64,000 nucleotides of DNA, taken from contig JAECRG010000001.1 of assembly GCA_015999875.1 (NCBI GenBank), positions 421,330 to 485,329 on the forward strand. Direction: 5' to 3'. Source of the DNA: Candidatus Saccharimonadota bacterium (GTDB lineage: Bacteria; Patescibacteriota; Saccharimonadia; Saccharimonadales; Saccharimonadaceae). The number at the start of each line of letters is the position of its first letter. Positions within the stretch are counted from its first letter, which is position 1. Shown piece after piece: positions 31,303-35,859 of the stretch. The position numbers and the translations under genes were made by a program. The notes under the pieces are model-generated. The model saw nothing but the letters and a program-made list of their open reading frames with translations, had not been told where the DNA came from and made no database searches.

Positions 31303-31378
31303 CGGGGTGTGGCGCAGTTGATAGCGCGCTCGGTTTGGGACCGAGAGGTCGAAGGTTTGAGTCCTTTCACCCCGACCA
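31303..31378 (+). tRNA. tRNA-Pro (anticodon UGG)
   Basis: CGGGGTG...CACCCCG acceptor pairing, anticodon stem CTCGG-TTTGGGA-CCGAG with TGG, encoded CCA; tacaat -10 about 15 nt upstream. Confidence 0.93.
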
Positions 31379-33178
31379 AGAGAAATTTTTGTCTAAATCC
31401 ACCATCATATCGTATGGTGGATTTAGCTTTATAACAGATACAGCGTTATCTCCAACTCGGAGGTTCAACACCACCTCCTGATACACTGCGTCTTCTTCAA
31501 TCAAATCTGTCGTATTTAACAGTGTTTCCAGATACGAATGCACAAGTTCAACAAATTGTTCACGGGTTGGCAGAGCATCGTTAAGACGAGCAAGCTCAGC
31601 CTTAAGGTTTTCTCGACTGGCAGTATGAACGTTAATTAGGTTTTGATACTCTTCAAGCTTGCCTTTGTGGTGTTGTTTGTATGCATCAGGATTAGATACT
31701 TGGAAGTTCTGGTACTTCGAGTACTCGTCACGGCTTCTGTTCAATTCAGTCTCTGCATCGCTTAACTTACGCTTTGCAATCTGTTTATCAACGGCAATCT
31801 TTTGCTCTAAGCGACCAACATAAACCTTATGAGCCTCTAGAACATTCTGCGTTAGGTTACGCAAAGTCCATTCAATATAAGAACTAATGTATTTCATTCT
31901 TACGCCCTTAGGCAGTTTCTTGCCATACTTCTCTATCGCCTTCGCATCGTCCTTACGAATACAATCTTCGTTGCGACAGTAAAAGCTTAGAAGCCAACTG
32001 CCAGCATTCTTACCCCTCACCACTTTAGTACGCTGAAATATCATTATCTTGTCGCAGTAATCACAGATAACTTTCTCTCGAAGCAAGCCAAAGTCCAGCC
32101 GTTTGCTAGCCGTCTTACGACCAACGAACTTTTCATTAAAGCTATAGGCAACATTCTGCGTTAGTGAGATAAACTCGTCAGCTGTAATGAGTGGTAAGAA
32201 ATCGTATATATCGTTTAGGTTCGCAACTCGTTCGCCGTACTTATAGACACCACAATAAAAGGGGTCTTTAAAGATAATACTCATAGCCTTTTTATCCATC
32301 TTGGCTACTGTTGGTTCGTCGTCCTTAAAGTTGCGGTAGCTAAAGTGAGCATCATTTAGGAAATCTGCAACTTCTTGGTTCGTTTTACCGTGCTGTAATC
32401 GCAGTACAACTGCTTGGCGTAGCAATTGCCAGTTGTGTCCATCTGGAATGAAATAGCCCGTCGTGGGGTCTGCATAGTATCCCTTCTTGGCAAGACCAAC
32501 GTACTTACCGTCTCTGATTGCTCCAGTAATACCCCTCGAAACATCGACACCAAGCTTGTCGGAATACTGTTTTGAGGTCGCAAACAATATACCCAAAAGC
32601 ATCTTTCCATTTGGCGTGTTGTCGAACTGATAGGTCTTAAAGTGCAAATCCTGTATCTGTTCAAGGTCAATCATTTCAATTATTTCGCCTGCTTCTTTCA
32701 TATTGCGAGACAAGCGGTCAGGCGACCAAGCTAGTAATCCGTGATACTTCTTGGTTTTAAATCCGTTTAATAAACCATCAAATATAGGTCGGTTACCTGA
32801 TGTTTTGGCAGAGGCACTTTCAATAAAAATATCTTCTTGTCTTACTACGATATTCAACTGTCTAGCCAGTAATAGGCATTCGGCTTTCTGGTCGTCTAAT
32901 GAGCGTACTTGGCGGTCTTCTGTATCGGTAGACTTACGAAGGTATATCGCATAACGTCGTCGCTCCTTCGGTAATATCCTTTGACTTCCTTCTGTTATCT
33001 TCAAGAAGTAATCGGTTAGCTCATTGGCATTGTGCTTACTCTCGGGTAAATCAAAGATGTCAGGATTGTCCTTTAGGCTATCTAAAACAACCTGCTCCGA
33101 CTTGAGTAGTTGTTCTTTAGTTAAAGGTGTCCGAACTGTTTTAGTACGAACTCGTGTTTTCTTTTCACTCCCTGCCAT
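31367..33178 (-). CDS. Large serine recombinase (integrase)
   Basis: Resolvase N-terminus RYAIYLRKSTDTEDRQVRSLDDQKAECL, zinc ribbon CDYCDKI...CRNEDC, coiled-coil; stop codon lies inside tRNA-Pro. Confidence 0.93.
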   Translation of the reverse strand: MAGSEKKTRVRTKTVRTPLTKEQLLKSEQVVLDSLKDNPDIFDLPESKHNANELTDYFLKITEGSQRILPKERRRYAIYLRKSTDTEDRQVRSLDDQKAECLLLARQLNIVVRQEDIFIESASAKTSGNRPIFDGLLNGFKTKKYHGLLAWSPDRLSRNMKEAGEIIEMIDLEQIQDLHFKTYQFDNTPNGKMLLGILFATSKQYSDKLGVDVSRGITGAIRDGKYVGLAKKGYYADPTTGYFIPDGHNWQLLRQAVVLRLQHGKTNQEVADFLNDAHFSYRNFKDDEPTVAKMDKKAMSIIFKDPFYCGVYKYGERVANLNDIYDFLPLITADEFISLTQNVAYSFNEKFVGRKTASKRLDFGLLREKVICDYCDKIMIFQRTKVVRGKNAGSWLLSFYCRNEDCIRKDDAKAIEKYGKKLPKGVRMKYISSYIEWTLRNLTQNVLEAHKVYVGRLEQKIAVDKQIAKRKLSDAETELNRSRDEYSKYQNFQVSNPDAYKQHHKGKLEEYQNLINVHTASRENLKAELARLNDALPTREQFVELVHSYLETLLNTTDLIEEDAVYQEVVLNLRVGDNAVSVIKLNPPYDMMVDLDKNFSWSG

Positions 33179-33266
33179 ATAGCTATTATATCCTTAAGGG
33201 TTGTAAAAGAGGTTCAACAGTTTTGTCGTATATCAAATATCCGCCAGTTTTTGTATAATAATTACT

Positions 33267-33405
33267 GTTCTAAGCTTTTAATCACAATAAGATAAACCCT
33301 CGGATTTAATCCGTGCGGTGTCCGCTTTAAAAATGGGCACCGTGTAAGCAGTAGGCGGAAGCTTATTGTGATAAAGGCTTAGAACACCTCACGGTGTCCT
33401 TTTTT
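33267..33405 (+). ncRNA. Candidate structured RNA with intrinsic terminator
   Basis: GTTCTAAGCTTTTAATCACAATAAG (33267-33291) pairs with CTTATTGTGATAAAGGCTTAGAAC (33362-33385): 24 bp, one bulge, one G.U. TATAAT at 33254-33259; ACACC-TCAC-GGTGT-CCTTTTTT after it. Confidence 0.7.
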
Positions 33406-33447
33406 ATTTGACACTCTTGAGACAACTAACCAAATAGGAGTGCCGAA

Positions 33448-33690
33448 ATGAAAAATCGTAAAACGTACAAAGTACTAACTATTATTGGGGCGTGCTTCCT
33501 ATTCGTAGGTATGCCAGTGAACCGCTTCTACCTAGGTCTTAGTGACGGCATCTTTGGACGGGTTATAACGCTCAACTTTTTCTTCATCGGTGCGTGGCTT
33601 GACCTGTTTTATATGGACAAGACCTTTGATGAAGCTATGGCAAAGCGGGGCTTTACGAATACAAATATTCGCAATCAACAAGGTCGATAG
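33448..33690 (+). CDS. TM2-domain-like small membrane protein
   Basis: NRFYLGLSDGIFGRVITLNFFFIGAWLDLFYM; upstream AGGAG. Confidence 0.6.
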   Translation: MKNRKTYKVLTIIGACFLFVGMPVNRFYLGLSDGIFGRVITLNFFFIGAWLDLFYMDKTFDEAMAKRGFTNTNIRNQQGR

Positions 33691-33692
33691 GG

Positions 33693-35597
33693 TTAACTAA
33701 CTGTTACGCCAAACTTTGCAAGAATTGCCTCAGCGAGACCGTTTAAGAGTGGGGCATCCTTTTTTAGCACCGCAGGTGTAGCCTTGTAGTTTTCGGCAAT
33801 CTTGTACTTAATTGTAGCGAGAATACCGTCTACTTTCTGCTTTTTACCTTTCGGGTCGATGATTTCATTCTTGAGATGAGCCTTTATTTGCTGGCAAAAA
33901 GGCAATGCAGTGTTTAGTGTAATGTTACCAAGACTGTTAGAAGAAAGGATACTGTTAGCCTGACTTTGAACGTAGGTAATTGGCAAGGTATCCTCGATTG
34001 AACCATCGCTAATCACACCCCCACTTAAATCACGAATGGTGAATACTTTTCCTGCAAAGTGGTTACTAATTTTCAAGATTTCAGGCTTTGCTTTTTGTCC
34101 AGCTTCATCGTCGTCAACGACAACCATTGGGCTGATATGGTGGAATGACAGAAGAGAGGCAGTAGCAACAATATTCGCACCCGTTCCATTAGTAATCAAT
34201 ACGTCGTGGTCTTTCTTGAGTAGTGAAAGTGCTTTTTGTAACAATATCTTATCCGTCTCACCCTCCACTAAGAGTTTATGCGGTGACAAGAAGTCTGAAA
34301 TGACATTAATTCCGAAAGCAGTCTGCAGAACCTCGTCATCATTAATATCTTCATCGGTCGTAATCTGATTAGCGGTCGTGAGATTGTTTTTGTCCTTAGT
34401 TAACAAATAGTGTCGCTCTTTAGTGTCACGGTCAAGCATAAAGTTCGAGTGCGTTGAGATAAACAAATAGTTGTGCTTACCAATCTCAAGTAGCTCCTCA
34501 AGCATAAACCTAACACCTGATGGGTGAAGATGAACTTCAGGCTCGTCAATTAAAATAAGGTGGTCTTTCGTATCACCAGAAGCACTGCTAATTGAAATGC
34601 TCAGAAGTAAAGATACGAATTGTTTGAAACCTTGACTGCGGTCTGCCATATCAAAATAATGGTCTTCGTCAGCGTTGTCTTGAACAGACACCGATGCGTT
34701 TAAGTCGCTTTCAACTTCAACATCAATACTGATTTTGTGCTCTTCCCATTTCGTATTTAAGTATGCAGTCGTCTTCTTGGATAGCATCTTCTTCAGATTT
34801 TTACGCTTATTGCTGTCTTTCTCGATTTCACCCACAACTTGCACGATTTTTTCTTTCGTCTCATATCCTGCAAGATAAAACATATTCTTGAGAGGTAAGT
34901 TACTTTCAGGTGCTTGAGCAAAGTCCTTTAGCTGAATTTTATCCTTAATCAGGTATTGCTCTTCGGACTTCCAAATGTCGACAGGAATGGAGATGTCTTC
35001 AACGAATTTCAAAAGTGCATCCCTAACGGTATCCTCAAAATTCTCCCTTGTTAGCGGTGCATACGCAGGCTTCTCTTCTTCGGTGATGTCGGCATTTGCC
35101 TTAATCACAATCTTTTCAACCGTTGAAGCGGCGACCGATAGACTTGCAGGGATGGTAACCGATGTCTTTACAAAACTATACTTCTTCAAGCCAGTTTTTT
35201 CATAATCATAAACGACGTCAACATCAAACGCTTCAGCAGTGCTACTGAGGTAAATCTCTTTTTCGATGTACTTAAGCTTGAAACCGTCAAGAAGCTCTTG
35301 TGGCATATCAACGTGACTGGCGATTACGTCCCGATAAGTATCGTTCTCATCTAACTCGAAGTGAAAATACACTTGCACGAACTGAGGTTCATTCTGCTGG
35401 TTCTTGATTTTAATAAAATCAACAGCACTCTTCGCCTCTTGAAGCTTTGGCGTCGCCATAGCATCAAGTACATTACTCTTACCGCTCTCGTTTTTGCCGA
35501 GCAGGATAGTAGTGTAACTATCACCATACTTCTTAATAGGAAAGCCAAGTTCGGCAATCGACTTGTAACCCTTTATTTTTATTTCGGTCAATTTCAT
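33693..35597 (-). CDS. OLD-family nuclease (SMC-like ATPase + TOPRIM)
   Basis: MKLTEIKIKGYKSI..LLGKNESGKSNVLDAM (Walker A), DRSQGFKQFVSLLLSIS signature, LILIDEPEVHLHPSG (Walker B), TOPRIM motifs LLVEGETDK and VVVDDDEAG. ATG at 35597 preferred (TATAAT 6 nt upstream); track start 35699 too long. Confidence 0.85.
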   Translation of the reverse strand: MKLTEIKIKGYKSIAELGFPIKKYGDSYTTILLGKNESGKSNVLDAMATPKLQEAKSAVDFIKIKNQQNEPQFVQVYFHFELDENDTYRDVIASHVDMPQELLDGFKLKYIEKEIYLSSTAEAFDVDVVYDYEKTGLKKYSFVKTSVTIPASLSVAASTVEKIVIKANADITEEEKPAYAPLTRENFEDTVRDALLKFVEDISIPVDIWKSEEQYLIKDKIQLKDFAQAPESNLPLKNMFYLAGYETKEKIVQVVGEIEKDSNKRKNLKKMLSKKTTAYLNTKWEEHKISIDVEVESDLNASVSVQDNADEDHYFDMADRSQGFKQFVSLLLSISISSASGDTKDHLILIDEPEVHLHPSGVRFMLEELLEIGKHNYLFISTHSNFMLDRDTKERHYLLTKDKNNLTTANQITTDEDINDDEVLQTAFGINVISDFLSPHKLLVEGETDKILLQKALSLLKKDHDVLITNGTGANIVATASLLSFHHISPMVVVDDDEAGQKAKPEILKISNHFAGKVFTIRDLSGGVISDGSIEDTLPITYVQSQANSILSSNSLGNITLNTALPFCQQIKAHLKNEIIDPKGKKQKVDGILATIKYKIAENYKATPAVLKKDAPLLNGLAEAILAKFGVTVS

Positions 35598-35859
35598 ACG
35601 CTGATTATAACACATAAAACAATTTATAAAATGCTTATGCCTATAAGTCAATCCTCGAAGACCCACGCCAGCTTGTTGGGCATTTCCCAACAAGGCCACC
35701 CCTGTTGGATAAATTTATTGTTGGGCTAAATCCAGACAAACATATTTTTCACCGTCCGCAATTATTTAAGTAGGTAGTGCGTTTACAGACTTTTTAAAAA
35801 ACAGTGCCCTACGGAGCAGGGGGGTACTCCATTGGGGCGTATTGACGTAAGATATAATT

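Follow-up and report, generated by a model that had tools for sequence, protein, structure and literature searches.

The DNA analysed here is a window of 64,000 nucleotides from a Candidatus Saccharimonadota bacterium, and the question raised by its positions 33254-33405 is whether the long, stable fold predicted there belongs to a free small RNA or to a regulatory leader of the gene that follows. The question is of some consequence, since Saccharibacteria have tiny genomes and live attached to host bacteria, and the regulation of their surface genes is poorly known. An earlier note on the sequence had favoured a novel small RNA with competing internal pairings. The best reading of the comparisons described below is that the element is a candidate cis-acting transcription attenuator, an orphan riboswitch-like leader, rather than a stand-alone small RNA. 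The features on which the argument draws are the following (window coordinates, strand in brackets).

31367-33178 (-): large serine recombinase (integrase), divergent from the leader and outside the RNA
33254-33259 (+): -10 promoter box TATAAT, 7 nt before the first stem base in the window
33267-33405 (+): leader RNA of 139 bases, from the inferred transcription start at G33267 to the end of the U-run
33267-33291 (+): 5' arm of the closing stem P1, with a bulged A33281
33301-33313 (+): P3, a small optional hairpin, CGGAT-TTA-ATCCG, missing or altered in many relatives
33315-33323 (+): strand A (GCGGTGTCC), partner of strand B
33321-33327 (+): 5' arm of P2, overlapping strand A; partner 33353-33359, a pairing read from the sequence
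33335-33344 (+): strand B (GGGCACCGTG), the conserved switching strand; partner A or D
33353-33359 (+): 3' arm of P2; partner 33321-33327
33362-33385 (+): 3' arm of P1; partner 33267-33291
33384-33388 (+): strand C (ACACC), 5' half of the local terminator hairpin
33390-33399 (+): strand D (CACGGTGTCC), 3' half of the terminator; partner C (through 33393-33397) or B (through 33390-33399)
33400-33405 (+): U-run of the intrinsic terminator
33436-33440 (+): ribosome-binding site AGGAG, read from the sequence
33448-33690 (+): 80-aa membrane protein, the putative controlled gene, without a Pfam family above cut-off

The local description given in the earlier note is confirmed. TATAAT and G33267 as the first base of the stem are both present, the computed fold contains the same P1 (24 bp, with one bulged A and one G.U pair), and the P3 hairpin, the alternative CCGC/GCGG pairings, the CGGTGTCC/GGGCACCG pairing and the terminator-like ACACC-TCAC-GGTGT-CC-TTTTTT were all found as described. 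The minimum free energy of 33267-33405 is -53.1 kcal/mol, against -30.0 +/- 3.7 kcal/mol for dinucleotide shuffles (z = -6.28; 0 of 200 shuffles), and this value, together with the retention of the -10 box and its spacing and of the stem by compensatory change among relatives, upholds the view that the RNA is structured beyond chance. The first two bases of strand C are also the last two bases of P1, strand A is almost a copy of strand D, and strand B can form a 10-bp pairing with strand D that lies flush with the U-run.

Signals for the start and the end of a transcript are widely kept in the family. Of 94 distinct copies, 92 have a hexamer that agrees with TATAAT at five or six of its six positions, 83 have exactly 6 nt between the -10 box and the first stem base, and 50 have a perfect extended -10 element (TGnTATAAT), compared with 1 of 1074 control stretches. 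Furthermore, 96 of the 97 aligned rows begin with G, and the U-run is conserved throughout the copies. Because the -10 match, the fixed spacing, the initial G and the U-run are all maintained, transcription almost certainly begins at the first P1 base and the RNA includes an intrinsic terminator, as far as sequence conservation can tell. Two tandem leaders, each with its own promoter and terminator, occur at L028:258-572 and again at L119:2042-2624.

The extent of the family became apparent from covariance models. A nucleotide search of 100 relatives returned partial matches in about a dozen genomes, covering the interior as well as the 3' arm and terminator; on reading, these genomes proved to hold complete elements of the same layout with different stem sequences. 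A first model (A1/R1), built from 20 of these elements, matched 108 of 295 genomes in the window's family and 90 of 391 genomes in its order, and a second model (R2) matched 83 of 295 genomes of the class and 22 of 382 genomes of the phylum, only six of the latter lying outside the class. The homologues that the earlier note had anticipated in Saccharibacteria elements were thus recovered. Some genomes have 5-11 matches, 11 being the maximum; the window's own genome has three real copies (the window, L110 and L127), a fourth match there being the antisense of the near-palindromic P1 at the same place as a true copy. Among named genomes, 41 copies score 69-100 bits, nearly all of them in records labelled Saccharibacteria, Nomurabacteria, Patescibacteria or unnamed bacteria. 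Exact matches to the terminator pattern in Psychrobacter, Clostridia and Bacteroidales reach at most 40 bits with the model, compared with 69-100 for true copies, and are therefore regarded as ordinary terminators. One high-scoring copy (L221:583-703, 86.7 bits) lies on a contig in a bin labelled Oscillospiraceae, and represents either a misbinned contig or a transfer to another phylum. A distant blastn search of phage records and a search of IMG/VR with three exact patterns gave no match, so the leader is not seen as phage-borne. The absence of a known family, also part of the earlier claim, agrees with Rfam: the window has no match at the gathering score, a loose threshold adds nothing but chance matches (E > 2), and 12 relatives have none at the gathering threshold of Rfam 15. 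A literature search, with subscription journals outside its coverage, returned no paper describing such a leader RNA in Saccharibacteria. Judged by these model matches, the leader is a large RNA family without a name, nearly confined to Saccharibacteria.

The pattern of substitutions in this family indicates which helices have been maintained. In alignment A3 (97 sequences), all nine outer P1 pairs have changed on both sides and 99% of cells are paired, a figure favoured by the fitting of the alignment to P1. The B:D pairing lay outside the covariance model used for alignment; it is formed in 95-99% of cells, compared with at most 54% in slid controls (same alignment, kinship uncorrected). Whole pairs are exchanged within it, G-C for C-G in 53 and 38 sequences, and also A-U for U-A and A-U for G-C. 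The longest B:D run measures 7-14 bp and reaches at least 9 bp in all except four copies. Beyond the core set, D and its partners change together, as in GGTTGTC with GGCAACT and GGCTGTC with GGGCAGTC. C and D likewise change in step (GACACC/GGTGTC, GACAACC/GGTTGTC, GACAGC/GCTGTC, GCACC/GGTGC), with the reservation that the C:D stems were located by maximal pairing, a procedure biased towards finding them. Duplex energies were better than those of permuted partners for A:B (-14.2, permuted -10.9 +/- 0.28), for P2 taken with inner P1 (-23.3, permuted -12.7 +/- 0.32) and for B:D (-18.3, permuted -15.4 +/- 0.18), all three tests leaving relatedness among the sequences in place. P1, B:D and C:D, as helices predicted from sequence, are shown by compensatory change, the covariation that the earlier note had named as a check; A:B and P2 are supported less firmly as putative pairings.

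Since B:D and C:D both change in step, strand D has two conserved and mutually exclusive partners, B and C, and B can pair also with A. Strands A, B, C and D, whose partners change together across relatives, would thus form a conserved, mutually exclusive switch. The competing pairings and switch-like exclusivity suggested in the earlier note are therefore well founded, although its list omitted B:D, the most tellingly covarying pairing of all. A nested fold and a fold combining P1 with B:D are nearly equal in energy (mean difference -1.1, sd 3.9 kcal/mol), which is what a switch would show. P1 with its 24 bp, P2 and B:D together would make a strained geometry, in which P2 probably must open. 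A natural deletion in L266 (1773-1821), which has lost the 5' half of the leader (promoter, P1 5' arm, A and B) and kept the terminator and the gene, might be informative.

Is the structure then a free RNA, or does it belong to the gene behind it? The downstream side was scored for an open reading frame of at least 50 codons with a ribosome-binding motif and a start no more than 110 nt from the U-run. Such a frame is present behind the U-run in 70 of 89 copies, compared with 8 of 91 on the divergent side, and the distance from the U-run to the start codon has a median of 44.5 nt (typically 45). Homologues of 33448-33690 number 16 in 295 genomes, and 14 of them, all intact, retain a full leader directly in front; of the other two, one has only the 3' half of the leader (L266) and one is a truncated gene fragment. 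It is this coupling to start codons and ribosome-binding sites, together with the linkage to one gene, that argues for a leader rather than a free RNA. A stand-alone small RNA of about 139 nt, acting in trans with its 3' end locked by the B:D pseudoknot and with the downstream genes incidental or reached by weak readthrough, would account for the own promoter, the own terminator and the stable fold in every copy, and for the tandem copies in L028 and L119. The strong positional coupling, the strict linkage to one gene family and the enrichment for particular gene classes do not fit it, and we consider it rather improbable. From the earlier proposal, the novel structured RNA thus survives and the mainly free small RNA is not supported, since the element behaves as a 5' leader. 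Both roles may be combined, as a terminated RNA of 139 nt would still be made. Between the U-run and the start codon in L021 (1522-1560) lies a second small hairpin, which bears a mini-copy of the core loop (GTTGCCAAATGACATCGCAGAAGCAAAATGGCAAC) and is possibly a translation-level element.

An attenuator would be expected to stand at a fixed place downstream of a promoter and upstream of a start codon, all on one strand, and to have an intrinsic terminator with a mutually exclusive alternative helix, and the copies have all of these, both helices being conserved. We consider it somewhat more probable than its negation that the leader of 33448-33690 is a transcription attenuator in which C:D terminates (OFF) and B:D gives readthrough (ON). 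Transcription would start at G33267 from the leader's own promoter, and P1 would close the leader domain. Strand B would either be held by strand A, the copy of D, or be released when P2 forms. With B held, C:D would fold before the U-run and transcription would end, leaving the gene off; with B free, it would take D, block C:D and allow readthrough into 33448-33690. A presumably cell-wide signal (a bound protein, an RNA, a metabolite or the speed of the polymerase) would set the balance for all leader-bearing genes. We infer the polarity, the signal and the co-regulation of all copies in a cell.

The opposite polarity must be taken seriously as a rival: lying against the U-run, B:D might act as a terminator. 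B:D would then be the real terminator helix and A:B an antiterminator keeping B off D, so that free B would turn the gene off. It is established that the upstream half of a terminator hairpin can be supplanted by a strand from elsewhere. In favour of this reading, B:D has 10-14 bp that run right up to the U-run, with an A-tract in front of B and compensatory changes that extend the helix into the U-run (UA/UA, CA/UG), whereas C:D has only 4-8 bp, about -6.5 kcal/mol and mostly a gap of 1-4 nt to the U-run. However, the compensatory conservation of C:D would be odd for a hairpin that prevents termination right at the U-run, and B:D would have to form across P1 as a pseudoknot. We regard this opposite polarity as unlikely, though less so than a stand-alone RNA.

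As for the signal presumed in the attenuator reading, invariant positions are almost confined to B, C, D, the P1 ends and the U-run; elsewhere only A33347 is more than 90% conserved, so that no obvious ligand-binding pocket can be recognised. The near absence of constant unpaired bases beyond the switching strands speaks for a protein, RNA or kinetic signal rather than a classical metabolite aptamer, and no known riboswitch class of Rfam 15 is matched. A leader peptide of the trp type was rejected, as most relatives do not keep the window's reading frame ATG-GGC-ACC-GTG-TAA (they have, for instance, AACGGC or AAGGGC; read by eye, with no program score).

In its working principle the leader resembles trp-type attenuators, PyrR leaders and purine riboswitches, all of which have a promoter, a structured leader with exclusive helices, and a short terminator hairpin with a U-run followed by a ribosome-binding site and a gene. 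In those systems, however, the shared strand is the 5' half of the terminator, whereas here it is the 3' half, for which both alternative helices unusually compete; furthermore, no leader peptide and no conserved ligand pocket are recognised here, and unrelated accessory genes are controlled instead of one pathway. The switching strand resembles by eye the antiterminator sequence of the T-box (RF00230; GGNACCGCG), which also ends in a terminator, but UGGN is not conserved here and Rfam gives no match. The likeness is superficial only; no aminoacyl-tRNA synthetase or amino-acid genes are among the 25 commonest downstream families. With 6S RNA (RF00013) the element shares a long closing stem and a transcript start at the first stem base, but it is a multicopy gene leader whose interior is not a large open bubble, and RF00013 has no match in the window's own genome. 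The long terminal stem around hairpins recalls retron msr-msd RNA; as the earlier note had remarked, no reverse transcriptase is visible here, and none occurs among the window neighbours scanned or among the 25 commonest downstream families. We take the element to be a new RNA family, unusual in its shared-strand design and in its distribution across gene classes in one bacterial lineage.

The integrase next to the leader raises the possibility that the repeat acts as DNA. Several relatives have the same divergent serine recombinase as the other neighbour of the 33448-33690 homologue, so that the recombinase and the membrane protein gene probably travel as a pair with integrative elements. A recombination or attachment site of this integrase, or a MITE with 24-bp inverted ends, would explain a long inverted repeat adjoining an integrase with the same neighbour in several relatives, and also the one truncated copy (L266). 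An attachment site, however, needs a constant integrase neighbour and a conserved sequence; only 12 of 96 loci have a similar recombinase nearby, and the arm sequences are wholly different between copies. In addition, G.U pairs are common in the covarying helices, and the promoter and U-run are conserved. The DNA-level explanation is largely refuted and very improbable. On the far side of the recombinase, a tRNA-Pro gene (31303-31378) abuts the 3' end of the opposite-strand recombinase gene, and for this reason the region 31303-33178 looks like one boundary of an integrative element. Beyond the membrane protein gene, an OLD-like protein at 33693-35699 (-) has AAA_15 and TOPRIM domains and matches the Old, AriA, PtuA and GajA defence models; it is a candidate anti-phage gene.

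The leader-bearing genes are accessory and mutually unrelated, yet alike in kind, being mostly genes for surface proteins and DNA-modifying enzymes. By a crude hydropathy rule, 57% of them encode a strongly hydrophobic N-terminal segment, compared with 21% of neighbouring genes (p = 1e-8). The families include FISUMP-domain proteins, DUF4352, OmpA, a surface lipoprotein and a type IV secretion pilin, as well as cytosine and adenine DNA methyltransferases, a Tsp45I-type restriction enzyme and a radical SAM enzyme. It is conceivable, at not quite even chances, that the leaders form an orphan class specific to Saccharibacteria which places unrelated accessory genes (for surface proteins, restriction-modification enzymes, conjugation pilins and integrase-linked membrane proteins) under one transcription-termination signal, horizontally gained genes joining an existing regulon by acquiring the leader. 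Several copies per cell would then define a candidate regulon, and the leader would serve as a promoter-switch part in genetic tools and indicate a testable signal. In one genome (G006), leader copies at L028, L029 and L031-L034 precede a paralogous large secreted protein, of FISUMP type in the member examined. In several genomes, many of the leader copies are found no more than a few hundred bases from the end of a contig, which suggests repeat families that break assemblies.
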